IMG/VR virus record: IMGVR_UViG_3300031963_000217
Coordinates: 1-51,118 of that record
DNA from: a virus
Length of the DNA: 51,118 nucleotides
Reading direction: 5' to 3' (one strand)
Shown: in pieces, positions 6,223 through 50,776 of the stretch
Position numbering within the stretch: the stretch's first letter is position 1
Layout: the number at the start of each line of letters is the position of its first letter
Translations under genes and position numbers: made by a program
Notes under the pieces: generated by a model
What the model saw: only the letters and a program-made list of their open reading frames with translations
Database searches by the model: none
What the model was told of the DNA's origin: nothing

Positions 6223-6504
6223 TCAACCAGCGAGTGCTGCTGACGCTGCTGCTGCCTCTTCGTTTCTTTGTGCTGCTGTCTTGACTAAACCTTCTTCATA
6301 AGCTGCCAAAACCATATCTGGTTTGTTAGTAGCAGTGATTGCTTCGTTATTATCTAACTTATGCTTGACGTAAAGGTCGCAGATTTCGTCAATCGCAATG
6401 CGAGCACGATTGGTTGCTGCATTATCAATCCAGTCCTGAGGATCAGCAGCGACGTATTGAAGTGCTAGGTCTTCTGCTTCCGTTAAAGTAATTGTATAGT
6501 CCAT
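6223..6504 (-). CDS. Small fibre-operon protein, copy 1 of a duplicated pair
   Basis: A 93-aa helical acidic protein beginning MDYTITLTEAEDLALQYVAA. Residues 1-83 are almost identical to the protein at 20823-21095 although the codons have drifted, and only the C-termini differ (AAAASAALAG here). It sits between two fibre genes, as does its twin. A role in folding or capping fibres is inferred from position and duplication. No family is recognised. Confidence 0.8.
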   Translation of the reverse strand: MDYTITLTEAEDLALQYVAADPQDWIDNAATNRARIAIDEICDLYVKHKLDNNEAITATNKPDMVLAAYEEGLVKTAAQRNEEAAAASAALAG

Positions 6505-11146: not shown

Positions 11147-11154
11147 TATTTATG
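11147..11154 (-). promoter_or_regulatory. Late promoter box fused to stop codon
   Basis: CATAAATA on the minus strand containing the TAA stop of 11150-13576; 15 bases before the ATG at 11132. Confidence 0.6.
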
Positions 11155-13576
11155 ATGGGTAGGAGATGATGACGATACCGGAACCACCAGTTCCACCACT
11201 TCTATAGTATGGATATCCTCCAGCGCCCCCGCCGCCACCGGTGTTTGCTTGACCTACTGTAGCAAGTGTTCCAGAACCTGTAGATCCATTTCCACCACCA
11301 CCGCCGCCACCGGTGCCACCAGTTCCGTTATAAGCTCCACCACCACCGCCGCCAGAATAAGTTAATGTTGTGCCAGAAATGGTAAAAGCAAGACCACTTC
11401 CACCATTTCCACCAGTTCCACCAGAAGCATTACTTCCGGCATTGCCAGCGCCGCCGCCGCCACCGCCTGAACCATAACCATCTCCACCGCCACTATTGCT
11501 TCCAGTTCCACCAGGATTTCCCCATCCTAACGGTGGGGAGGCAGTTACAGGAGCACCACCAGTGGCACCTGATCCAGTTCCTCCTGGTTGAATTGGTCCA
11601 CCAGGTCCAGGAGCTCTACCGCCTCCACCACCACAACCACCAGGAAGACCTGTACTTCCATAGTTTGGAGAACCTGCTCCACCACCAGTAGCAGTTACTG
11701 TAGTTGAAAGTGATAAAGAACTATTTGATCCATTCGTCGCCTGAATGCCCATATCTCCATTTCCACCTTGCCCACCTCCACCAACTGTTACGGTGTATTG
11801 TCCTGGAGATGCTGAAACTGGTGCCGAAGTCGCATATTGAATTGCTCCTGCCCCACCACCACCAGAAATAGTACCCCCGCCACCGCCGCCACCAGCGATA
11901 ACCAAATAATCAATAGAAGTTAAAGATGGGCTTAATATGCTAAAGGTGCCAGAACCTAAAAATGTATGAATTGTTTTTGTTGGAGAATATGAAACTGTAC
12001 CGCCACTTGCTTTTGCTGCGATTAAACCTTGTTGATATCGAATTACAACAACACCAGATGCACCAGACTTTGAAACATTAGGAGATGCATGTGATGCTCC
12101 ACCACCGCCCCCACCTGTGTTAGCAGTTCCATCATTTCCTGCTCCTGCTGGTGATCCACCACTACCACCTCCACCAGGTCCACCAGATCCCCCTTGACCT
12201 GCTACATTTGCTCCACCACCACCGCCACCTGCATAAGTCACTGATGTTCCTGTAAGACTATATGATAATCCGTCACCACCAACGCCACCATATGTAGATG
12301 GACCAGGACCAGAAGTTCCCATTGGATTACCTTGTCTTCCTGCTCCGCCACCACCTCCAAAAGCAGCATAAACGGATGGATTATGTTGACCATATCCACC
12401 AGGATTTCCTTGACCAGAAGTTCCAGAACCACCACCAATAGATGGAATCGTAGCAACTGCGCCGCCGCCGCCGCCAGAACCTCCAGGATGTCCAGCAGCT
12501 GCTGGTGCTGAAGGTGAAAATTCTCCTCCACCACCGCCACTAATTGCAGTAATAGTTGTTATATCAGGTCTTGATATTGTTGATGGAGTTCCATCATTTG
12601 GTGTTCCTGCTGCTGGGAGTCCTGCACCACCACTACCAATTGTAACTGAATAAGAACCTGGTGTAATTGGATATGAAGAGTTGTACAATAAACCACCAGC
12701 ACCACCTCCGCCACCACCTCCAGAGGGACCAGCACCGCCACCACCGCCGCCAGCGACTACCAAATATTCAATAACTGCGTCTGTTCTAGAAGAAGTAACG
12801 TTAAATGTTCCAGAAGAAGTGAAACGATGTGCTCTATAAAAAGCACCATTTAGTTCATATTCACTTATAGTTCCACCTGTTGCCTGAATATAAGGCGATC
12901 CAACATTTGCCCATCCCTGAATATTTCCATTGTAAACTTGAACTGCCCCTTCTGTCGCATTGTAAATTATAGTTCCAGTTGCAGTATTGATGCCAGCATT
13001 TCTACCAGTGGTGCTTGTGGTTCCTAAACCAACCAAATTATTTCTTATAAACGCATTTCCAACAGTGATACTTGAAGCTGAACCAACTTGAACTCCATTA
13101 GTCGCAGTAATGATACCAGAAGATTGAAGTCCTTGTGACTGTAAAACTCCAAAGACAGTCGCACCGTATCCTGTGGTTTCCAGTTCTTTTGAGTTATCAT
13201 AATAAAGTTCTGCTGCTCCATTTGTATTAAATACGGCAAGTAATTCACTAAAAGCAGCATTGTATAATATTATGCCATTACTTCCAGCAATAGCTAAATT
13301 TCCAGTTCCAGAATCACTAATTATACTGTTGGACCCATCGTGATAAATCTGCAGATCATTACTATCACCTAAAAGAATTTTATCATTATCACCAAGATTC
13401 ACATTACTTTGGAATGTGGAGACGCCTGATACATTTAGTGCTGTGGAATTGACATTCCCGTAGTTTGGTGCTGTGATCGAAGTCGCAGTAATCACACCAG
13501 TGATATTAATGCCCGTCAAAGGTGCGGTGCTTGAAATACCAGAACTGGTGATTTGTGTAAGACGGTCAAGTGCCAT
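11150..13576 (-). CDS. Glycine-rich adhesin with two Gly-rich modules
   Basis: An 808-aa virion protein. Residues 1-250 are fibre repeats, including DNDKILLGDSNDLQIYHDGS and the module TTGRNAGINTATGTIIYNAT shared by all three glycine-rich adhesins here. Two Gly-rich domains follow (about residues 268-510 and 555-808). Each opens with EYLVVAGGGGGG or DYLVIAGGGGGG, is full of GGGGGxGG runs, and closes with SGVVVIRYQ or SGIVIISYPS. This matches the phage glycine-rich domain; in T4-type gp38 adhesins Gly-rich stretches form polyglycine helices that display receptor-binding loops. Paralogues: 14428-16032 and 18670-20805. Confidence 0.88.
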   Translation of the reverse strand: MALDRLTQITSSGISSTAPLTGINITGVITATSITAPNYGNVNSTALNVSGVSTFQSNVNLGDNDKILLGDSNDLQIYHDGSNSIISDSGTGNLAIAGSNGIILYNAAFSELLAVFNTNGAAELYYDNSKELETTGYGATVFGVLQSQGLQSSGIITATNGVQVGSASSITVGNAFIRNNLVGLGTTSTTGRNAGINTATGTIIYNATEGAVQVYNGNIQGWANVGSPYIQATGGTISEYELNGAFYRAHRFTSSGTFNVTSSRTDAVIEYLVVAGGGGGGAGPSGGGGGGGAGGLLYNSSYPITPGSYSVTIGSGGAGLPAAGTPNDGTPSTISRPDITTITAISGGGGGEFSPSAPAAAGHPGGSGGGGGAVATIPSIGGGSGTSGQGNPGGYGQHNPSVYAAFGGGGGAGRQGNPMGTSGPGPSTYGGVGGDGLSYSLTGTSVTYAGGGGGGANVAGQGGSGGPGGGGSGGSPAGAGNDGTANTGGGGGGASHASPNVSKSGASGVVVIRYQQGLIAAKASGGTVSYSPTKTIHTFLGSGTFSILSPSLTSIDYLVIAGGGGGGGTISGGGGAGAIQYATSAPVSASPGQYTVTVGGGGQGGNGDMGIQATNGSNSSLSLSTTVTATGGGAGSPNYGSTGLPGGCGGGGGRAPGPGGPIQPGGTGSGATGGAPVTASPPLGWGNPGGTGSNSGGGDGYGSGGGGGGAGNAGSNASGGTGGNGGSGLAFTISGTTLTYSGGGGGGAYNGTGGTGGGGGGGNGSTGSGTLATVGQANTGGGGGAGGYPYYRSGGTGGSGIVIISYPS

Positions 13577-13949: not shown

Positions 13950-14354
13950 TTATTCGGCAGCAGGCTCAGGGGTAACGAGATCCCACTCACCGTTCTCTTC
14001 GTCCCACTGGTATCTTGAACCTGCTTCCACTTGCTCTGCAGTAAGTTCAGGAGCAGGTCCAACTGGCGATTCCCAGTCGGCAGTTTCGTTGTTCAAAACC
14101 CAAGACTCAAAAGGCTTTGGTGCGACGAAGGCATCCAGTCCAGCATTGTATGAGTAACCAACGCCAGCATAACGCTTTCTGATGCTGCTGTTGTAGGAGG
14201 TCTGAACCCACTTACCACCCAGAAGCTTCTTACAGAAAGCAATACCTAGAATCTCATCCTCTTCGCCAGTGTGAGGATCGGTAATATCTTTGTTATCTAC
14301 TACGATAACTTGTGTGACGACGTTGTTTTCGTCTAGTTGAGCAAAGTGTGCCAT
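13950..14354 (-). CDS. Conserved phage structural-type protein (MAHFAQ family)
   Basis: A 134-aa protein beginning MAHFAQLDENNVVTQVIVVD, with W-V-Q-T-S-Y-N near the middle, RKRYAGVGYSYNAGLDAFV and PFESWVLNNETADWESP towards the end. This pattern is very widespread in marine phages, usually annotated as hypothetical or structural and found near tail-fibre genes. The acidic C-terminus (LVTPEPAAE) is unlike a signal. I infer a virion or fibre-associated role. Confidence 0.8.
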   Translation of the reverse strand: MAHFAQLDENNVVTQVIVVDNKDITDPHTGEEDEILGIAFCKKLLGGKWVQTSYNSSIRKRYAGVGYSYNAGLDAFVAPKPFESWVLNNETADWESPVGPAPELTAEQVEAGSRYQWDEENGEWDLVTPEPAAE

Positions 14355-14427: not shown

Positions 14428-16032
14428 TCAAACTCTATATCTAATAACCACTATTCCACTACCACCTTGCCCTGCCGATCCACCAGCAACCCCAGCACCA
14501 CCTCCGCCACCAGTATTTGCAACTGCATTAGAACCACTAGTTGGTCCTGCAACTCTAGCACCACCAGCGCCGCCGCCGCCAGGTCCACCACTACCGCCTG
14601 GTCCAGGACTCCAAATAGAACCACCACCACCGCCAGCATATAGACCAGTAGGTCCAATCGCAGATGATGTTGGGGAAGGGACAGCAGGACCAATTAACAA
14701 GGAACTAAATGTGGAGTATGATAATCCAGCACCTCCTGGAGAAGGAGTGCCATTTGGACCAGCACCATTTGTTCCTGCAGCTCCAGCGCCGCCACCGCCG
14801 CCGCCAGGACCACCAGGTCCAGCTCCGCCGGCAGCGGACCCGCCAGGATTTCCCCACCCAGCTGGCGGTGAAGCATTTCCAGCAGTTCCACCAGGTGATC
14901 CAGTTGCTGGACCAGCAAATTGTACTGTAGGTCCACCACATCCAGCACCACCACCCGATCCACCAGGTCCTCCTGGTTGATTTCCACTGTCTGATCCACC
15001 ACCGCCTCCTCCAGGAGCCGTTACTAAACCTCCAAGAGAAGAAGAACCTCCAGTAGTTCCTCTTGAGCCAGCCACTGCAGGCCCACCAGCGCCTCCAGCA
15101 CCAATTGTTACTGGATACGTTGCATTTGAAACTAAAACCGAAGTTGAATATACTAAAGCGCCAGCGCCGCCGCCGCCGTTGCCATCAAAGCTTGGAGCAC
15201 CATTTCCTCCCCCACCTCCGCCACCGACACACAAAACTTCAACTGTGTTACTTCCAGTAACAACAAAGCTCGCAGGACTTGATGCAAATACATGATAAGT
15301 ATATCCATTATTTGATACAGTAGAAGGAATTATTGTCCCTCCACTAGCACTAAATGCTGACTTAATTGTTTGCCATCCCAAAATAGGTCCAAAATATCCT
15401 TCAATTGATGTTGTGGTATCATTATAAACCAAAGTTCCAGTCGCAGTTCCAACACCAGCATTTCTACCAGTTGTTGTTGTTTGACCTAGACCAATTTGAT
15501 TATTTCTTATAAAACTTTGTCCAACAATAATACTTGTTGTAGCACCAACTTGAATACCACCAGAAAATGTAGAGAGTCCAGTAGCATTTACATTACCAGT
15601 TACATTACCACTAAATCCACCAGTCGCTGTTACAACTCCAACAACAGAAGCACCAGCACCAACTACAAGACCGCTTCGTGCGGTAATAACACCAACAGAA
15701 TCAACGTTAGTTACATCTTCATAGGTCACTGTTCCAGCAACACTAATGTTTCCACTAAAAGATGCACTCGCAGCAGTGATAGTGCCGACAGTAATGTTGG
15801 GTGTTCCGCTTAACCCCGTTGCGTTTCCTGTTACATTTCCTGTTAGATTCCCTACAAAACCACTAGAAGAAGTTGTAACACCACTAACAACAAGACTATT
15901 CGTTCTTACATTTGCTGTTGATGCCGCACCAGTAATATTGGGAGTATCGATACTTCCAGTGACTACAATGTTTTGTAAAGTAACTGTCCCAGTGCTTCCA
16001 ATACCAGCGGCAGCAATCTTGGTAAATGCCAT
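14428..16032 (-). CDS. Glycine-rich adhesin with one Gly-rich module
   Basis: A 534-aa protein. The N-terminal 130 residues (GNLTGNVTGNATGLSGTPNI, then TVTYEDVTNVDSVGVITARS) are nearly identical to the start of the 558-aa fibre at 23665-25341. Next comes the TTGRNAGVGTATGTLVYNDT module, then one Gly-rich domain from about residue 262, opening EVLCVGGGGGGG and closing GSGIVVIRYRV. Within it, Gly-Pro steps are frequent (GGAGPGGPGGGGGGAG). Probable receptor-binding adhesin. It is the first gene after three oxygenase genes. Confidence 0.88.
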   Translation of the reverse strand: MAFTKIAAAGIGSTGTVTLQNIVVTGSIDTPNITGAASTANVRTNSLVVSGVTTSSSGFVGNLTGNVTGNATGLSGTPNITVGTITAASASFSGNISVAGTVTYEDVTNVDSVGVITARSGLVVGAGASVVGVVTATGGFSGNVTGNVNATGLSTFSGGIQVGATTSIIVGQSFIRNNQIGLGQTTTTGRNAGVGTATGTLVYNDTTTSIEGYFGPILGWQTIKSAFSASGGTIIPSTVSNNGYTYHVFASSPASFVVTGSNTVEVLCVGGGGGGGNGAPSFDGNGGGGAGALVYSTSVLVSNATYPVTIGAGGAGGPAVAGSRGTTGGSSSLGGLVTAPGGGGGGSDSGNQPGGPGGSGGGAGCGGPTVQFAGPATGSPGGTAGNASPPAGWGNPGGSAAGGAGPGGPGGGGGGAGAAGTNGAGPNGTPSPGGAGLSYSTFSSLLIGPAVPSPTSSAIGPTGLYAGGGGGSIWSPGPGGSGGPGGGGAGGARVAGPTSGSNAVANTGGGGGAGVAGGSAGQGGSGIVVIRYRV

Positions 16033-16054: not shown

Positions 16055-16062
16055 TATTTATC
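16055..16062 (-). promoter_or_regulatory. Late promoter box fused to stop codon
   Basis: GATAAATA on the minus strand containing the TAA stop of the 176-aa oxygenase gene; 23 bases before the ATG at 16032. Confidence 0.6.
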
Positions 16063-16588
16063 GCACTAACATATCCCAAGAAGTCACAACACGCTCTTTA
16101 TTGCTTGCGTTTGACTGTGCGTAATGTAAAAGCACACTGGGAACAATATACATTACACCTTCTTTCGCATCAGGAGCAAAAGCAAGTTGTGTGGTATCAC
16201 TTACAGGATCGTTCCAGGGACCAACAAAGACTGTTGGTTTATGAACTTTCTCATCATACTCAACATATAAAATTCCACTGTAACCGTGACTACGATGATT
16301 ATGAACGGTCTGATAGTCTTCTTTCTTATATTTAATCGTCCAGATATCGGTGATTTGATACTCCGAAACACCAGACTCTTCACAAAACTTTTTCAGTTCC
16401 TCATTGAAGAGCATATCAAAGTCCAGAGCATAACTTCTACCGTCCTTCTGGCGGTCTGTATAAAAGTGTTGAAGACCTTTCTTCTCAAAGTTTTTTCTTT
16501 CAATCTTTTTATACAGTGCCGCCTTTTTTCTGGACCAGTCTTCTACCTCATAACGGTAGATTGGTACGAAGAATAGGGGATGTATCAT
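16058..16588 (-). CDS. Putative 2OG-Fe(II) oxygenase, 176 aa
   Basis: A 176-aa protein with the pattern of the cyanophage 2-oxoglutarate/iron oxygenases: YQTVHNHRSHGYSGILYVEY (His96 and His98, with Y-S-G-x-L-Y-V strand) and a distal SVLLHYAQSNASNKERVVTS (His155, Arg166). These fit a double-stranded beta-helix with iron ligands and a 2OG-binding Arg. Such enzymes hydroxylate proteins or small molecules. Its ATG directly follows the TGA of the second oxygenase. The acidic metal ligand is not obvious, so function is less sure than for the other two. Confidence 0.7.
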   Translation of the reverse strand: MIHPLFFVPIYRYEVEDWSRKKAALYKKIERKNFEKKGLQHFYTDRQKDGRSYALDFDMLFNEELKKFCEESGVSEYQITDIWTIKYKKEDYQTVHNHRSHGYSGILYVEYDEKVHKPTVFVGPWNDPVSDTTQLAFAPDAKEGVMYIVPSVLLHYAQSNASNKERVVTSWDMLVR

Positions 16589-17293
16589 TCAGCGAACTGC
16601 GTCAAAAGCACAGTGACAGAAAGGACCATTGGCGTTTACATAATGTAAAAATATCTGATGGTGGTAAGTATCATCAGGCAACTTTCTCACCTTTCTCCAT
16701 AACCTTTGTGCCCTATTATACCTTGAAGGAAGTGGGTCACGCCAGTGTTCTCTTTCACACCCCTTATAAACCGCTGCGTCACCATCGTTCATCAGCACAT
16801 AACTTTCAGAACCATCAGGACGCTCAAACCAAATGGGCCAAGGATTGTCAGGATGATTAGAACTGATTTGAAGGGTCACACTCACTTCACAAGCAGGACG
16901 GTCACTATGACGCTTTAACTGTTGACCAACAAAATAAAAACGGTCATAGAAATAAGTTGGGTGAAGGTCCATTTCAAGACGCTTCTCTATTTCTTTCTTA
17001 ACCAGAAAGTGTAGTTCACGATAGGTCGGGATATTATAACGAGCAAGTGAACCATTGACTTGCTTCTCATCAGGACAGTAATCATACTTGTCCATTCGGT
17101 TATTATAATAAGTTATTTGCCCCCTTTCAGTCGGCACATCAACCTTTAAGTTTTGTGGGTCGGCAATGAGACCTGGAATGAATAAGTATCCGTTCTTCTC
17201 AAAGGACTCGTTCTTGGACATCTTACGAGGAGGCATCGCACAACGTTGATACCCTTCCTCATAGACACCGCCTGTGGACTTATATTCTTTCAT
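16589..17293 (-). CDS. 2OG-Fe(II) oxygenase, prolyl-hydroxylase-like, 234 aa
   Basis: A 234-aa protein with an H-x-D iron motif at residues 129-131 (QQLKRHSDRPACEVSVTLQI) and a distal His183 with Arg185 in CEREHWRDPLP; the segment GDAAVYKG before it is the usual strand. Oxygenases of this type couple oxidation of 2-oxoglutarate to hydroxylation of a substrate, often a protein side chain. The start at 17293 has a fine GAGGAGGT site that lies inside the last codons of the GIY-YIG gene, so it is translated from the same message. Its substrate is unknown. Confidence 0.82.
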   Translation of the reverse strand: MKEYKSTGGVYEEGYQRCAMPPRKMSKNESFEKNGYLFIPGLIADPQNLKVDVPTERGQITYYNNRMDKYDYCPDEKQVNGSLARYNIPTYRELHFLVKKEIEKRLEMDLHPTYFYDRFYFVGQQLKRHSDRPACEVSVTLQISSNHPDNPWPIWFERPDGSESYVLMNDGDAAVYKGCEREHWRDPLPSRYNRAQRLWRKVRKLPDDTYHHQIFLHYVNANGPFCHCAFDAVR

Positions 17294-17295
17294 TG

Positions 17296-17952
17296 TTATA
17301 CCTCCTCATTTTGTTGTTGTTTTTTGCGTTCCCACCAGAGTTTTCTTGCTTCACTTTGTTTTCTTCTAGTTTCTTCACTAGGAGACTTTCCATAAAAATA
17401 ATTTTTTTCACCCTTGCGAGATTCACTCATTTTCTTTTTACTTTCTTCTGAATGCTTTTTACCAATCCAAGGATGTGGTTGATTTTTCCAAGTTTCTGTT
17501 GTCCGTTCTTTTAGAAGTTCTTTAGTTTCTTCTGTATGCGTTTTTCCATAAAAAGGATTTTGTTCCCCATCGTAAGACCGTCTCTTTTGTAGAGTTTTTT
17601 CTATCCACTCTGGTTTAATTTCTCTACCTTTAAGTCTCTCACTCATCTTTTTTTTATATTCGTCAGAACGAACAACTCCTTCGGCAGAAAACCCAGTAGA
17701 AGTTTGTTTAGATTGATTCGCAAAATGAGCGTTTCTTGCCACATCATAAAACTGATGTAACTTAATTTCAGCATCTAATGCCTCTTCTCTTGTATCAAAT
17801 ACTTCTAAAATAATTTTATTGGTAGGGTTAAAAGTTTTATCATAAAAAGAACCAAAGTACCTATCTTCCTCTGGAAGACAGTCGCAAGTTCTACTTCCGA
17901 TATATCCCCTACCAAAATCTTCGTAAGAGTAATAGACGTAATGATGTCTCAT
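17296..17952 (-). CDS. GIY-YIG family homing endonuclease with NUMOD3 motifs
   Basis: A 218-aa protein. The N-terminus HHYVYYSYEDFGRGYIGSRT matches the GIY-YIG nuclease core in variant form (YVYY ... GYIGSR), followed by EVFDTREEALDAE. The C-terminal half carries NUMOD3-type DNA-binding repeats: NPFYGKTHTEETKELLKE, PWIGKKHSEESKKKMSESRK and NYFYGKSPSEETRRKQSEAR. This layout is that of freestanding phage homing endonucleases (Seg-like). It interrupts the oxygenase cluster and has its own exact late promoter. It is a selfish gene rather than a host-range factor. Confidence 0.88.
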   Translation of the reverse strand: MRHHYVYYSYEDFGRGYIGSRTCDCLPEEDRYFGSFYDKTFNPTNKIILEVFDTREEALDAEIKLHQFYDVARNAHFANQSKQTSTGFSAEGVVRSDEYKKKMSERLKGREIKPEWIEKTLQKRRSYDGEQNPFYGKTHTEETKELLKERTTETWKNQPHPWIGKKHSEESKKKMSESRKGEKNYFYGKSPSEETRRKQSEARKLWWERKKQQQNEEV

Positions 17953-17973
17953 AATACTGCTAAATGATATAAG

Positions 17974-17981
17974 TATTTATA
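17974..17981 (-). promoter_or_regulatory. T4-type late promoter box (exact consensus)
   Basis: TATAAATA on the minus strand, 22 bases upstream of the GIY-YIG gene start at 17952. Confidence 0.65.
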
Positions 17982-17997
17982 TCTCAAACGAGGTTCA

Positions 17998-18615
17998 TCA
18001 TTTCCACCTCGGACCGCAAACCCAGCCGACTAAACTTTTTCTGAGGCCAGACTTGACTTTACGAACTCGGTGAGGAGTGCGTGAGTCAAACATAATCAAA
18101 GTGCCCCTCTGCTTGGGAGCAAAATAGGTCTTACGTCCGTTATCCATAAACTGAACTTCGCCACCAGTATAGTCCTCTGGGTCTGATAGTTGAAGTGAGA
18201 ATGAAAGTTTTCTCACATACTCACCTTGAACCGTGAGAAGATCTTGTGCGATATTGGTGCCTGAACTGACGATTTGTTGAGGTTTATAAGCAGTATCAAT
18301 ACCCGCATCAATGTGCCAGTCATAAAACTGTCCAGCACCATATTGAGTGTATTGAATACTTTCACCATCAATCGCAGTCAGGTCATACAGAAAGTTTTCT
18401 CTGTTGGTTCTCTGAATATAATGCCAGATGAAACCACCAATCCAATGAGAAGTCGGAATCCAGGCATTCTTGCTATCACGGATGACTTTATCTACTGCGT
18501 CTCCGTGAAGTCTGGACTCTTGTGCGATGGGATCGAACTTCTTGATATCTTCTTCAAGAATTTCTATAATATCTTTTGGTAGGTCAGTCGTGTACCACGT
18601 CGTGAGGAACGCCAT
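17998..18615 (-). CDS. 2OG-Fe(II) oxygenase, PKHD type, 205 aa
   Basis: A 205-aa member of the PKHD/PiuC-like prolyl-hydroxylase group. The H-x-D motif is at residues 101-103 (GQFYDWHIDAGIDTAY), the second strand is KLSFSLQLSDPEDYTGGEVQ, the distal His is 182 (FDSRTPHRVRKV) and the 2OG-binding Arg is about 192 (SGLRKSLVGWVCGP). All catalytic residues are present. It is the most complete of three oxygenases in this cluster. A TATAAT-like box with a short hairpin precedes it. Its position next to Gly/Pro-rich fibres suggests, but does not prove, fibre hydroxylation. Confidence 0.88.
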   Translation of the reverse strand: MAFLTTWYTTDLPKDIIEILEEDIKKFDPIAQESRLHGDAVDKVIRDSKNAWIPTSHWIGGFIWHYIQRTNRENFLYDLTAIDGESIQYTQYGAGQFYDWHIDAGIDTAYKPQQIVSSGTNIAQDLLTVQGEYVRKLSFSLQLSDPEDYTGGEVQFMDNGRKTYFAPKQRGTLIMFDSRTPHRVRKVKSGLRKSLVGWVCGPRWK

Positions 18616-18669: not shown

Positions 18670-20805
18670 TTATGATGGGTAAGCGATGATGACGATACCG
18701 GAACCACCGTTAGCTCCTTGTTGACTTCCTGTTGGAGTAACAGGTGGACCAACATACGCGCCACCACCACCTCCACCACCGAGATTAACATTTCCATTGG
18801 ATGCTACCCCAGTTGTTGGTCCACCAGCGCCACCTCCACCAGATCCCCCAGCACCTCCACTAGTGGGTGATGAATTTGCACCATCAGCAGATCCTCCTCC
18901 ACCTCCACCACCGGCATATGTTATTGAAGAACCATTAATACTAGATGCTAAACCAGATCCACCAATTCCACCAGCAGGTGGGTTACTTCCAGAACCACCA
19001 GCACCTCCACCACCAGATCCAACATATGGAGAAGCTGATGGTGATCCGGGTGATGCTCCTGGTGGACAGAATCCACCATTATTGCCTTGCGATGGGACAG
19101 TTGTTGCCGTGGGTTGATTAGTTCCATCACCTCTATTTCCAGTTCCCGCAGTGCTTTGGAAACGAGCAGCGCCTCCACCACCAGATCCACCATTTTTACC
19201 TGCGTTATTATCTCCTGCTCCACCTCCACCACCACCTTGTGATGTTATTGTTGAAAATATAGAAGCACTTCCAGGAGATCCATCTGAGGCACCACCAGCA
19301 CCTGTTCCTCCAGTTACAGCGCCACCCCCTCCGCCAGATCCAACAGTGATTGAATATGAACCAGGAGATACGGAAAAACCACTTCCTGTTCTCATTCCGC
19401 CAGCTCCACCGCCGCCGGCAAAACGAGCGCCACCTCCGCCGCCACCGCCAACTACAAGGTAGTCAACGGAACTTAAAGAAGGATCGGTGACTGTAAAGGT
19501 CGCTGATGAAGTAAAGGTGTGAATAGTCTTACCATCAGCATATGAAACTGTTCCACCAGTCGCTTTGACTGACTGTTGACCGACCTGATAACGGAGGATG
19601 ACGATACCGGAACCGCCAGCAGAACCTGATCCTGGAGATGGTTGTGCCCCTCCTCCTCCGCCGCCGCCGCCAGTGTTTGCTGTTGCAGAGGCGGAAGCAC
19701 TAGATGGAGACGAAGCACCTGGACCACCAGTAGCTCCACCACCAGATCCACCTGCTCCACCAGTTCCAGCAGGACCAGGTTGTCCGCTTGCTACTTGTTG
19801 ACCACCGCCGCCGCCGCCGCCGGCATAAAAGACTGCTGTTCCGGAAATAGATGAAGGTAGTCCAGTTCCTCCTGCACCACCAAAATTAAGACTACCACCT
19901 GCACCAGGTGCTCCTGCACCACCACCTCCTCCTCCACCTCCACCAACTGTTGTTGGAGCAAGAGTGCCTGCACCTTGACCACCAGGATTTCCTTGCCCAG
20001 GAGTGCCTGTTCCTGCGGGCAATCCTCTTCCAAATCCACCACCACCTGATGCGCCAGATGTGCCTCCAGGGCTGCCTCCAGGGATGCCCTCACCACCAAG
20101 AGAAACGATAGCAGAAAAACCAACATTTGACGAATTAAATGTTGAACTATTACCAGGAACATTTTGTGGAGCACCTCCTGCTCCAACAATGATTGAATAT
20201 GCTCCAGGAGAATTACTAACAGTTACACCAATACCAGTTCTGAAACCGCCTGCACCGCCGCCTCCCCCTGCACCATTACCATTATCACCATTAGTTCCAC
20301 CGCCTCCACCACCAACTACAAGATACTCGACAGTATTATTATTAGCAGGAGCAGTTAAAACTTTAAAAGTATTAGATGCAGTAAACGTATGCGCTTTCCA
20401 AAAAACTCCACCACTATAATAAGAAGTTACAATACCACCCGTTGCCTGAATAAAGTTATCTGATGTTGGTTTCCAAGTTGTTCCGTCATAAACTTCTACA
20501 ATACCCACTGTTGAATTGTATATAATAGTTCCAACAGCAGTTCCAACACCAGCATTACGTCCAGTGGTCGTTGTAGCGCCTAGACCGACACCAGTACTAT
20601 TAATAAACTTATCACCTACCGTAATACTAGTCTGTATTCCAGATATTTGACCAGTTACATTACCCGTTAAGTTTCCAGTGATACTCGTCGCACTCAAAAT
20701 ACCGACCGTTGTGATACCTGAAAGAACCACACCAGTATCACTGAATGTTACGGTGCTTAATCCACTTCGGTTTTGTATTTGATTGACACGAATTTCAGAA
20801 GCCAT
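18670..20805 (-). CDS. Glycine-rich adhesin with two Gly-rich modules
   Basis: A 711-aa protein with a short repeat stalk (GNLTGNVTGQISG), the TTGRNAGVGTAVGTIIYNST module and then two Gly-rich domains, about residues 160-408 and 448-711. They open EYLVVGGGGGG and DYLVVGGGGGGG and close GGSGIVILRYQ and GGSGIVIIAYPS. The last 40 bases of the gene nearly match those of the 808-aa adhesin, pointing to duplication or recombination. A receptor-binding role is inferred from the phage glycine-rich domain family. Confidence 0.88.
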   Translation of the reverse strand: MASEIRVNQIQNRSGLSTVTFSDTGVVLSGITTVGILSATSITGNLTGNVTGQISGIQTSITVGDKFINSTGVGLGATTTTGRNAGVGTAVGTIIYNSTVGIVEVYDGTTWKPTSDNFIQATGGIVTSYYSGGVFWKAHTFTASNTFKVLTAPANNNTVEYLVVGGGGGGTNGDNGNGAGGGGGAGGFRTGIGVTVSNSPGAYSIIVGAGGAPQNVPGNSSTFNSSNVGFSAIVSLGGEGIPGGSPGGTSGASGGGGFGRGLPAGTGTPGQGNPGGQGAGTLAPTTVGGGGGGGGGAGAPGAGGSLNFGGAGGTGLPSSISGTAVFYAGGGGGGGQQVASGQPGPAGTGGAGGSGGGATGGPGASSPSSASASATANTGGGGGGGGAQPSPGSGSAGGSGIVILRYQVGQQSVKATGGTVSYADGKTIHTFTSSATFTVTDPSLSSVDYLVVGGGGGGGARFAGGGGAGGMRTGSGFSVSPGSYSITVGSGGGGGAVTGGTGAGGASDGSPGSASIFSTITSQGGGGGGAGDNNAGKNGGSGGGGAARFQSTAGTGNRGDGTNQPTATTVPSQGNNGGFCPPGASPGSPSASPYVGSGGGGAGGSGSNPPAGGIGGSGLASSINGSSITYAGGGGGGGSADGANSSPTSGGAGGSGGGGAGGPTTGVASNGNVNLGGGGGGGAYVGPPVTPTGSQQGANGGSGIVIIAYPS

Positions 20806-20819
20806 TATGGTTTTTTAGG

Positions 20820-20827
20820 TATTTATT
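20820..20827 (-). promoter_or_regulatory. Late promoter box fused to stop codon
   Basis: AATAAATA on the minus strand containing the TAA stop of the 90-aa gene; 15 bases before the ATG at 20805. The spacer up to the ATG matches that of the promoter at 11147 almost base for base. Confidence 0.65.
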
Positions 20828-21095
20828 GAGGTAACTGTGCTGCTGCTTCTTCGTTTCTTTGTGCTGCTGTTTTGACTAGACCTTCTTCGTATGCCGCTAA
20901 GACCATATCAGGTTTGTTAGTAGCAGTGATTGGTTGGTTATTGTCCAACTTATGTTTTACATAAAGGTCGCAGATTTCATCAATCGCAATTCTTGCTCTG
21001 TTGGTAGCAGCATTATCAATCCAGTCTTGTGGGTCTGCGGCGACATATTGAAGTGCTAGATCTTCTGCTTCTGTTAAGGTAATTGTATAATCCAT
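20823..21095 (-). CDS. Small fibre-operon protein, copy 2 of a duplicated pair
   Basis: A 90-aa protein nearly identical to 6223-6504 over its first 83 residues (MDYTITLTEAEDLALQYVAA, DLYVKHKLDNN, MVLAAYEEGLVKTAAQRNEE), differing at NNQPIT versus NNEAIT and at the tail (AAQLPQ). Many codons differ while the protein is unchanged, so the sequence has been held by selection since duplication. It lies between a C1q-like fibre and a glycine-rich adhesin. Function not recognised; likely a fibre partner or chaperone. Confidence 0.8.
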   Translation of the reverse strand: MDYTITLTEAEDLALQYVAADPQDWIDNAATNRARIAIDEICDLYVKHKLDNNQPITATNKPDMVLAAYEEGLVKTAAQRNEEAAAQLPQ

Positions 21096-35660: not shown

Positions 35661-36032
35661 TCAATGAGTATTAGTGCTTAAATACTCAATCATTGCTTGG
35701 AGAGTGCTTACATTATCTCCAACAAGACCAAGAGCAGTGTTGCAATTATTACAAAGAACACCACGAACCTTATTTGTAGAGTGGCAGTGGTCTATACATT
35801 TCTTTGTCAGTTCTACATTACATATCTGACAGTTCTCATTCTTCATCAAGTCATTATATTGGTCCTCCGTGAGTTTAAACTTGCGTCTGGCATATTCGTG
35901 AGTTTTATAATACTGTCTGCGAACTTCTCTTTCGCAGTCCTTACATTTTGATTGAACACCAGAAGGTCTACTGCTTCTTTTAGAGAACCCATCAAGTTCT
36001 TTTATTTGTCCGCATCTGCTACAAGTTTTCAT
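35661..36032 (-). CDS. HNH / endonuclease VII-like homing endonuclease next to psbA intron
   Basis: A 123-aa nuclease with an N-terminal zinc knuckle (CSRCGQIKELDGF ... CKDCEREVRRQY) and a C-terminal endonuclease VII-type domain: KFKLTEDQYNDLMKNENCQI, CIDHCHSTNKVRGVLCNNCN, with the D-H-C-H core. It lies just downstream of split psbA. In cyanophage S-PM2 a freestanding endonuclease (F-CphI) encoded next to psbA targets the intron insertion site; this gene occupies the same place and may have the same role, though I cannot say whether the proteins are homologous. It has its own exact late box. Confidence 0.85.
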   Translation of the reverse strand: MKTCSRCGQIKELDGFSKRSSRPSGVQSKCKDCEREVRRQYYKTHEYARRKFKLTEDQYNDLMKNENCQICNVELTKKCIDHCHSTNKVRGVLCNNCNTALGLVGDNVSTLQAMIEYLSTNTH

Positions 36033-36110: not shown

Positions 36111-37444
36111 TTAACCGATTGTGGGAGCAGTAAGAGCAACTGGAGTTGCTTCTGCTGCAGCAAGGTCAAGAGGGAAGTTGTGGGCGTTTCTTTCATGCCG
36201 TTATTGTTATCGTAAAGACTCTTTATTCTTTACTTCTCTATGTCGCCATAGAGTCCAGACTATCTCTTCATCCGTTCTGGATGCTGGGCATTCGTGGGTA
36301 GATTATTGTTGGAACTCACTACCTAGTCGTTAGACCTGCCGAAGAACCTATGTCCTCTTCGGATTGGTACGGGATTGTCTACTTGAGAGTTTCCCCGTTT
36401 AACCCAGTTTCGTCAAGAAACATTCCTGTTTCAGGGTGACTACATTTAAGAAATCACTTCCATGCCGAGTCCAGCACGGTTGAGAACATCAGCCCAAGTG
36501 TTGATAACTTTACCCTGACTATCAACGATAGATTGGTTAAAGTTAAAACCATTCAGGTTAAATGCCATCGTGGAAACACCAAGAGCGGTGAACCAGATGC
36601 CTACAACAGGCCAAGCAGCAAGGAAGAAGTGCAGCGAACGGGAGTTATTAAAGGAAGCATATTGGAAAATAAGGCGTCCGAAATAACCGTGAGCAGCAAC
36701 GATGTTATAAGTCTCTTCTTCTTGACCAAACTTGTAACCATAGTTCTGCGACTCAGACTCAGTGGTTTCACGAACCAGCGAGGAAGTCACAAGAGAACCG
36801 TGCATTGCACTAAACAGAGAACCACCGAAGACACCAGCAACTCCAAGCATGTGGAAGGGGTGCATCAGAATGTTGTGCTCTGCCTGGAACACAAGCATGT
36901 AGTTGAAAGTACCAGAGATACCCAGAGGCATCGCATCAGAGAAAGAACCTTGACCGAAAGGATAGACCAGGAATACAGCAGATGCAGCAGCAACAGGTGC
37001 GCTATAAGCAACACAGATCCAAGGACGCATACCCAGGCGGTAGGAAAGTTCCCATTCACGACCCATATAGGCGTAGATACCAATCAGGAAGTGGAACACA
37101 ACCAGTTGGAAAGGACCACCGTTGTAGAGCCACTCATCTAGAGAAGCAGCTTCCCAGATAGGATAGAAGTGCAGTCCAATAGCATTGGACGAAGGAATCA
37201 CAGCACCAGAGATGATGTTGTTTCCGTACATAAGAGAACCAGCAACGGGTTCACGAATACCATCGATGTCCACAGGAGGGGCAGCGATAAAGGCAACGAT
37301 GAAGCAGATGGTAGCAGCAAGCAGACAAGGAATCATCAGAACGCCGAACCAACCCACATAGAGGCGGTTATCGGTGCTGGTGACCCACTGGCAAAACTGT
37401 TCCCAAGTATTTGATTGTCGTTGTTGAGCGATTGAAGCAGTCAT
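36111..37444 (-). CDS. psbA: Photosystem II D1 protein, split by a group I intron
   Basis: Two exons, 37444-36453 and 36198-36111, join to encode a 359-aa D1. Exon 1 runs from [20 protein letters not shown] to NRAGLGMEV plus AT of the next codon; read alone it would stop after IS. Exon 2 restores [14 protein letters not shown] and ends TAPTIG. D1 binds the manganese cluster, P680, pheophytin and QB; the acceptor motifs [20 protein letters not shown] and [15 protein letters not shown] are intact. Cyanophage D1 replaces the fast-turning host D1. The leader is about 160 nt with hairpins; the promoter is at 37615-37643. Confidence 0.97.
36199..36452 (-). other. Group I intron in psbA, 254 nt, no internal gene
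   Basis: The split lies after AT of the ATG codon in GMEV-M-HERN. Supports: the 5' exon end GTGAT pairs with an internal guide GTCAC (36440-36436), giving the obligatory U-G pair; GCAT at the 3' exon pairs with ATGT (36445-36442) as P10; P7 strands GACTA (36328-36324) and TAGTC within AGATAGTC (36265-36258); P4-like ACGGG/CCCGT (36398-36394 with 36373-36369); intron ends in G. S-PM2 psbA carries a group I intron near its 3' end too. Confidence 0.93.
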
Positions 37445-37496
37445 TTGTTTTTAAAAGGATAGTAAGACCATCAGGGAAATGGTGGAGATACTATGC

Positions 37497-37564
37497 TCCC
37501 CGCACCCTTAGCGGGGATATGAGAGACGTAATTTATACACCCATAGGTCTCGGTTAACGGGTGT
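37497..37564 (-). promoter_or_regulatory. Structured psbA 5' leader
   Basis: Two hairpins in the leader of psbA: TCCCCGC/GCGGGGA with a 7-nt loop (37497-37517) and ACACCC/GGGTGT with a 16-nt loop (37537-37564). No T run follows, so they are not terminators. A smaller ACCAT/ATGGT hairpin lies near 37467-37483. They may stabilise the message or regulate translation; no clear Shine-Dalgarno is seen. Confidence 0.6.
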
Positions 37565-37609
37565 TTGACAGTGTTACAATCTGTTAGGGATTCATAACAT
37601 TTGTTTACC

Positions 37610-50617: not shown

Positions 50618-50776
50618 TCAAATCATTATACCAAAAAAGGAGAGTTTATGCAACTCTCCCATCAGGTCTTTCATGCACGCCACCAATTCTTTGACTGGAA
50701 ATTGGAAACCAGGCGGGAGAGAGTCCCATCCGCACCAACTGCCCTTGAGAGAGGCAGTAAACTCAAATAGGGTCAT
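50618..50776 (-). CDS. Possible small protein, 52 aa, running through a terminator
   Basis: ATG at 50776 after GGTGGAG opens MTLFEFTASLKGSWCGWDSL ... ending KLSFFGIMI. It lies just after the 78-aa membrane gene. The C-terminus runs through the terminator hairpin at 50633-50659, so either the frame is chance or the message is truncated within it. No family recognised. Confidence 0.35.
   Translation of the reverse strand: MTLFEFTASLKGSWCGWDSLPPGFQFPVKELVACMKDLMGELHKLSFFGIMI
50625..50653 (-). promoter_or_regulatory. Putative promoter of the sugar operon
   Basis: TATAAT (50630-50625) on the minus strand, with TTGCAT (50653-50648) 17 bases upstream in the loop of the terminator. The -35 match is weak, so confidence is moderate. 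Reads leftward into 49781-50602. Confidence 0.45.
50633..50659 (-). terminator. Rho-independent terminator upstream of the sugar operon
   Basis: GGAGAGTT pairs with AACTCTCC around a 5-nt loop on the minus strand, followed by six T. Confidence 0.85.

Follow-up and report, generated by a model that had tools for sequence, protein, structure and literature searches.

Two 2-oxoglutarate- and iron-dependent (2OG-Fe(II)) oxygenase genes, A and B, often joined by a third, C, recur in phages beside genes for Gly-rich tail-fibre proteins. We propose that this cassette hydroxylates prolines in the tips of the Gly-rich fibres, and we put the probability of this reading at roughly 0.58. Fibre hydroxylation is favoured because synteny holds in both directions, the genes co-occur across genomes, B and A are naturally fused in one phage, B has a prolyl-hydroxylase-like predicted fold and the fibre proteins are enriched in proline. 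An earlier sequence-only reading had suggested such a modification; it is the best fit to the comparative evidence, which supports it in part.

The window, i.e. the whole stretch of DNA analysed (51,118 bases), reads as a fragment of a T4-like cyanophage with psbA- and psbD-like genes and a tail-fibre cluster. Glycosyltransferase- and GDP-sugar-enzyme-like genes can be read at 39-50 kb. On the minus strand the cluster begins with a Gly-rich protein of 711 aa, continues through A, a homing endonuclease, B and C to a Gly-rich protein of 534 aa, and then through a phrog_7759 gene and a 113-aa ORF to a Gly-rich protein of 808 aa. Three 2OG-Fe(II) oxygenase genes had been placed between Gly-rich adhesins at 14428 and 18670; the coordinates proved exact, and PF21722 matches both flanking proteins. 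The homing endonuclease between A and B (17296-17952) and the third Gly-rich ORF (11150-13576) had not been reported.

20820-20827, minus strand: T4-type late-promoter-like motif AATAAATA, ~15-20 bases before the 711-aa Gly-rich gene
18670-20805, minus strand: Gly-rich tail-fibre protein, 711 aa, upstream of A, candidate substrate; two PF21722 matches
17998-18615, minus strand: oxygenase A, 205 aa, 2OG-Fe(II); PF13640 / phrog_61
17296-17952, minus strand: free-standing homing endonuclease gene between A and B; apparently GIY-YIG-like N-terminus, NUMOD3 repeats
16589-17293, minus strand: oxygenase B, 234 aa; phrog_2954, predicted jelly-roll fold, prolyl-4-hydroxylase-like
16058-16588, minus strand: oxygenase C, 176 aa; PF13759 / phrog_81
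16055-16062, minus strand: late-promoter-like motif GATAAATA, preceding the 534-aa Gly-rich gene
14428-16032, minus strand: Gly-rich tail-fibre protein, 534 aa, candidate substrate; one PF21722 match
13950-14354, minus strand: small phrog_7759 protein; phrog_7759 profile
11150-13576, minus strand: third Gly-rich protein, 808 aa, possible substrate; two PF21722 matches

C starts directly at the end of B, and the trio is flanked by gaps of 54 and 25 bases. In most relatives A and B are directly adjacent, with no endonuclease between them; a homing endonuclease also occupies the A/B junction in loci L010 and L016. The T4-type late motif NTAAATA, whose frequency across the window is just mildly above chance, precedes the 711-aa and 534-aa Gly-rich genes and the endonuclease gene, and a motif scan of the window found it absent before A, B and C. 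With no late motif before it, A would depend on read-through and, judging from the motif positions, is probably transcribed from the Gly-rich gene. Window scans for sigma-70 promoters and terminators did no better than chance. Genes of phrog_7759 come after Gly-rich genes in related loci, and the protein is possibly a fibre assembly factor; the idea of a Pam3-type chaperone was dropped, as a PDB search gave no match.

All three Gly-rich proteins match PF21722 above cut-off (E = 8e-13 for 14428-16032, 8e-28 for 18670-20805 and 2.4e-36 for 11150-13576). Glycine makes up 27% of the 534-aa protein and 31% of the 711-aa protein, and the N-terminal part of the former resembles annotated tail fibres. 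The structure model of its C-terminal module (14431-15360) has a pLDDT of 87, and the best PDB fold match of the model is the Pam3 fibre 7YPX (E = 1.3e-5); a mycobacteriophage tail tip and the ALK Gly-rich domain rank next, and 7YFW is also matched. With TM scores of 0.36-0.5 the match is partial, and the resemblance to Pam3 is one of type, not detail; the module models like a receptor-binding fibre of the Pam3 gp24 type. Among known systems, Pam3 gp24 and the S16 gp38 adhesin come closest to the window module, whose fibre role is predicted from sequence and model. In Pam3, gp24 is present in the virion, and its Gly-rich stems and variable tips were proposed to act in receptor recognition; the paper reports no modification, and the word 'hydroxyl' is absent from its text (PMC9608196).

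A likeness to collagen-type modification had also been suggested, and it holds only loosely. No run of at least six Gly-X-Y triplets (X and Y not Gly) occurs in the three window proteins, which are better described as poly-glycine-type receptor-binding domains without Gly-X-Y triple helices. A link of the oxygenases to collagen-like phage proteins was rejected, as they are present in just 4/107 (Gly-Pro-Gln)n and 1/108 (Gly-Ala-Thr)n stretches among the matches listed. Loci L327 and L296 have A adjoining collagen-like genes.

Conservation of the cassette was examined from both ends, and the gene order recurs far beyond chance. Anchoring on B gave 80 viral contigs and 8 reference phages, which reduce to 34 non-redundant loci (B <80% identity). 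In each of the 33 loci having any upstream gene, A is the first or second gene upstream of B. Six or more upstream genes are available in 25 loci; in 16 of these, a Gly-rich ORF (≥20% Gly) is among the four genes preceding B, whereas anchors placed at random in these loci would give 7.3 (0/5,000 draws). For the reverse sample, a protein query for Gly-rich relatives returned one match, and a DNA motif for GG[ST]GI(V/I)2IRY, picked without reference to oxygenases, was used instead. Among the matches listed, it yielded 120 viral stretches, 37 of which carry A and 27 both A and B, usually in the order Gly-rich gene, one or two small ORFs, A, often C, and B. In contrast, control stretches with an S74 tail-fibre motif carry A in 9/120 and B in 0/120, and random 14-mer stretches carry A and B in 0/120 each, again among the matches listed. 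Fisher tests on the listed stretches give p = 3e-9 for B against S74 and p = 5e-13 for A against random.

Likewise, in 16 complete phage genomes fetched by accession, B is present in 6/6 genomes with a strong PF21722 match and in 2/10 without (Fisher p = 0.0035; p = 0.007 when S-RSM4, already known to have B, is left out). B lies far from the Gly-rich gene in S-ShM2 (103 kb), S-SCSM1 (31 kb) and Syn9 (11 kb), and occurs without PF21722 in S-PM2, S-SKS1, S-SM2 and S-MbCM6, the last two of which carry other Gly-rich proteins. Laboratory cyanophages in which A and B adjoin Gly-rich genes include Synechococcus phage Bellamy and S-RSM4.

The amino acid composition of the Gly-rich proteins points to proline. 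In the motif sample, among the matches listed with 3 kb or more of downstream sequence, the median Pro content of Gly-rich ORFs is 5.6% at A/B loci and 2.1% without A/B (p = 1.4e-13), and no amino acid differs more between the two groups. Among the same listed matches, Pro is higher despite a lower GC content at oxygenase loci (0.37 vs 0.44), Pro in other proteins differs little (4.0% vs 3.6%), and the Xaa-Pro-Gly context is slightly commoner at oxygenase loci (22% vs 18% of prolines). On a tree of 83 Gly-rich modules, under full Brownian correction, the Pro effect is +2.3 points (p = 6e-6). Loci with and without oxygenases alternate through just 6 changes across this tree, so lineage effects are reduced, not removed. 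Homologous Gly-rich columns shift from S/T/N to P. Of the four residues compared (Pro, Asn, Lys, Cys), Pro alone is significant after tree correction, with p = 0.2 for Asn, 0.09 for Lys and 0.07 for Cys on the 83 modules. Lys and Cys were dropped as targets, their raw enrichment being lost on correction. The original suggestion had been prolyl or asparaginyl hydroxylation; its prolyl half is strengthened by these results, and Asn, which shows no enrichment (p = 0.2-0.8), was rejected.

Individual genomes follow this trend with exceptions. Cyanophage Gly-rich proteins near A/B contain ~4-9% Pro, and the three window proteins 4.7-5.6% (5.2% in the 711-aa protein), each with GNPGG. Gly-rich Pro is ~2% in P-SSM2, which lacks B, and in Syn9, where B is unlinked. 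Counterexamples are S-WAM2, with 4.4% Pro and no B, and S-ShM2, with 3.7%.

Two other explanations of the gene linkage were weighed against these data. The oxygenases might act with carbamoyltransferases and halogenases in a pathway for sugar coats or secondary metabolites, modifying polysaccharide on the host surface or producing a small molecule, and would then adjoin fibre genes since both have to do with that surface. Such a role was proposed for a cyanophage cluster in which 2OG enzymes accompany carbamoyltransferases and a halogenase (PMC7824862). Some cassettes contain carbamoyltransferase or Trp-halogenase genes, which could point to a non-fibre substrate, and the window has the sugar-enzyme-like genes read at 39-50 kb. 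However, these additional enzymes turn up sporadically, in contrast to the recurrent combination of Gly-rich gene, A and B, and a Pro enrichment specific to Gly-rich proteins is left unexplained; we consider this pathway improbable. Equally improbable is the absence of any functional link, with the end of the tail-fibre cluster acting as an insertion hotspot and Pro content being a lineage trait. Accessory-gene hotspots are described by Sullivan 2010, a homing endonuclease is inserted in the window cassette, and A lies near S74 fibres in 9/120 stretches among the matches listed. Yet B, among the same matches, is near S74 fibres in 0/120 and near Gly-rich genes in 27/120, and the presence/absence co-occurrence, the fixed A-then-B order and the tree-corrected Pro effect all exceed what a hotspot accounts for.

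We then consider the enzymes themselves. A matches PF13640 (E = 2.3e-14, above cut-off) and phrog_61 (E = 1.9e-40). Its iron and 2OG residues, H101-I-D103, H182 and R192, are invariant in 9 phage homologues and constitute the HxD...H triad and 2OG-binding Arg of the 2OG-Fe(II) superfamily. By sequence, the nearest solved structures are of the PiuC/YbiX PKHD type (3DKQ, E = 4e-8; PiuC, E = 5e-5). The PiuC/YbiX enzymes come from cells, and their substrate is uncertain. The phage protein A scores 50.6 bits, well under the NCBIfam equivalog cut-off of 143, and a PKHD-type assignment was rejected. A weak profile match (E = 0.003) was obtained to 5C5T/5C5U, which we take to be the PBCV-1 viral prolyl 4-hydroxylase. 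Phage proteins of phrog_61 were already noted to resemble the human prolyl hydroxylase EGLN3 in structure (PMC12774648). Whole genomes here have up to 8 copies of phrog_61. In ACG-2014b, phrog_274 'DNA endonuclease V' proteins adjoining the A-B pair have weak PF13640 similarity.

B matches phrog_2954 (E = 1e-57) and carries the name 'ferrochelatase' in PHROGs and RefSeq. Neither oxygenase nor ferrochelatase models of Pfam match B in a search of 43 homologues, and a PDB sequence search with window B returned nothing useful. The AlphaFold model of B (pLDDT 94, pTM 0.90) has a prolyl-4-hydroxylase as its top PDB fold match, then AlkB, SnoN and PHD2, all 2OG enzymes; the best 50 matches are 2OG oxygenases, and the predicted fold includes their double-stranded beta-helix. 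The triad H129-S-D131...H183 is invariant in the 43 homologues. Because the model matches 2OG enzymes and these residues are invariant, the ferrochelatase name is unsupported; B models as a 2OG-Fe(II) oxygenase with a prolyl-hydroxylase-like fold. Complete triads in A and B had been noted at the outset, and the homologues bear this out. S-SCSM1 encodes a natural B-A fusion of 454 aa, the phrog_3531 profile aligns with B in its first half and A in its second, and B is nearly always single-copy in whole genomes; A and B probably act as partners.

Closest to B in predicted fold are the P. putida prolyl-4-hydroxylase (4IW3/4J25) and PHD/EGLN, with which it has the 2-His-1-carboxylate iron site in common. 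The P. putida enzyme is ~12% identical and has EF-Tu as its substrate, whereas the substrate of the phage enzymes is only proposed. In bacteria, translation proteins are known to be hydroxylated, and the top-matching structure is a complex with EF-Tu, so the phage enzymes might modify EF-Tu or a ribosomal protein and steer translation during infection. This is quite unlikely: the fold similarity is moderate (TM 0.5-0.6), and a host target gives no reason for the two-way Gly-rich link or the Pro bias. Least probable is a general auxiliary metabolic role in 2-oxoglutarate/nitrogen stress, DNA repair (nitrogen-stress or DNA-repair genes in Sullivan 2010, PMC3037559) or, with B as a ferrochelatase, iron/haem metabolism, as in pelagiphage and Western English Channel papers that pair phrog_61 with 'ferrochelatase' phrog_2954 (PMC9599517, PMC11561400), since no Pfam ferrochelatase model matches the 43 B homologues, B models as a 2OG oxygenase, and a role in nitrogen control or DNA repair would not lead one to expect Gly-rich fibre genes alongside.

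C, described earlier as partly recognisable, is recognised by Pfam as a putative PF13759 oxygenase (E = 1.1e-9) and also matches phrog_81. Its residues H96-N-H98, H155 and R166 form an HxH...H...R pattern, with HxH in place of HxD/E, which is common to the solved PF13759 proteins 2RG4/3BVC. A PDB sequence search with window C returned nothing useful.

Under fibre hydroxylation, A, B and, when present, C would form a fibre-modification cassette expressed late alongside the Gly-rich fibre proteins. Using O2 and 2-oxoglutarate inside the host, A and B would hydroxylate prolines of the receptor-binding Gly-rich modules, either ahead of fibre assembly or while it proceeds. The hydroxyls could stiffen proline-rich loops or tips or alter their surface, thus tuning receptor contact. 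The analysis itself shows the predicted folds, the iron ligands, the gene linkage and co-occurrence, and the Pro bias, whereas the hydroxylation chemistry and its effect on binding are inferred. We regard the fibre as the rather likely substrate; that proline is the hydroxylated residue, suggested by the predicted fold of B and the Pro bias of the putative substrate, is about an even chance. Mimivirus hydroxylates and glycosylates its collagen, and the principle of a virus-encoded enzyme hydroxylating the virus's own surface proteins is the one proposed here. It differs from the window cassette in having true collagen repeats and lysine chemistry, and in being a giant virus of eukaryotes. The chlorella virus PBCV-1, a eukaryotic algal virus, encodes a small 2OG prolyl hydroxylase that acts on Pro-containing peptides, but this enzyme is packed in the virion, whereas here two or three enzymes lie beside fibre genes. 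It is also a cautionary precedent, as the prolyl 4-hydroxylase is active and hydroxyproline was not found in virions (PMC7019647).

Our literature search covered open-access papers (subscription papers and preprints lay outside it) and found none tying the A-B pair to Gly-rich tail fibres, nor any report of hydroxylated phage fibres. The A-B pairing itself is already published, read as iron/haem metabolism; the fibre link was not found. Correcting the 'ferrochelatase' name bears on published marine virus gene surveys (PMC9599517, PMC11561400). Few accessory genes are as common in marine phages as those for 2OG-Fe(II) oxygenases, of which a single genome can have 24, and the role of these enzymes was stated to be uninvestigated (PMC9602691). 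Once a recurrent oxygenase pair is linked to a particular fibre protein and residue, the question of role becomes testable by ordinary mass spectrometry. If fibre hydroxylation is true, phage fibres would be incomplete when produced in the absence of these enzymes, and host recognition by abundant marine phages would depend on protein modification. More tentatively, and we think this rather doubtful, a widespread class of phages may install hydroxyproline, and in some lineages carbamoyl or halogen groups, on receptor-binding tips, making host recognition modification-dependent.

Some oxygenase cassettes contain or adjoin genes for a carbamoyltransferase or a tryptophan halogenase, as in these viral stretches:
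L204, 4755-6410
L005, 7312-8976
L022 and L023
L017, 11075-12652
L007, 7316-8872

In many loci a small phrog_7759 protein (window 13950-14354) is encoded downstream of the Gly-rich fibre genes, between these and oxygenase A, and it is possibly a dedicated assembly factor. In another viral stretch, L327 (4358-11105), an A-type oxygenase lies close both to a 1170-aa protein packed with GNPG/GQPG repeats and to a collagen-like protein of 811 aa with (GPQ)n repeats. No such link is seen for collagen-like genes as a whole.

Two small ORFs of the window (20823-21095, 90 aa; 6223-6504, 93 aa), each downstream of a different fibre gene, are almost identical, apparently through recent duplication. The psbA-like gene (36446-37444) has a group I intron match at its end (36236-36497), past which lies an HNH-type ORF (35661-36032). 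Rfam matches in the window are:
872-920, glutamine riboswitch
37483-37576, PhotoRC-II RNA
50669-50766, wcaG RNA

Judged by sequence similarity, the name 'DNA endonuclease V' is doubtful for the phrog_274 proteins of two viral stretches, since one (L006, 7239-8445) weakly resembles 2OG-Fe(II) oxygenases and the other (L131, 6706-7185) has no such resemblance over the cut-off, with a weak cupin similarity. Likewise, the database label 'ferrochelatase' is unsupported for phrog_2954, which comprises oxygenase B (window 16589-17293) and its relatives. Phage ferrochelatase counts based on phrog_2954 in published surveys may represent 2OG oxygenases instead.
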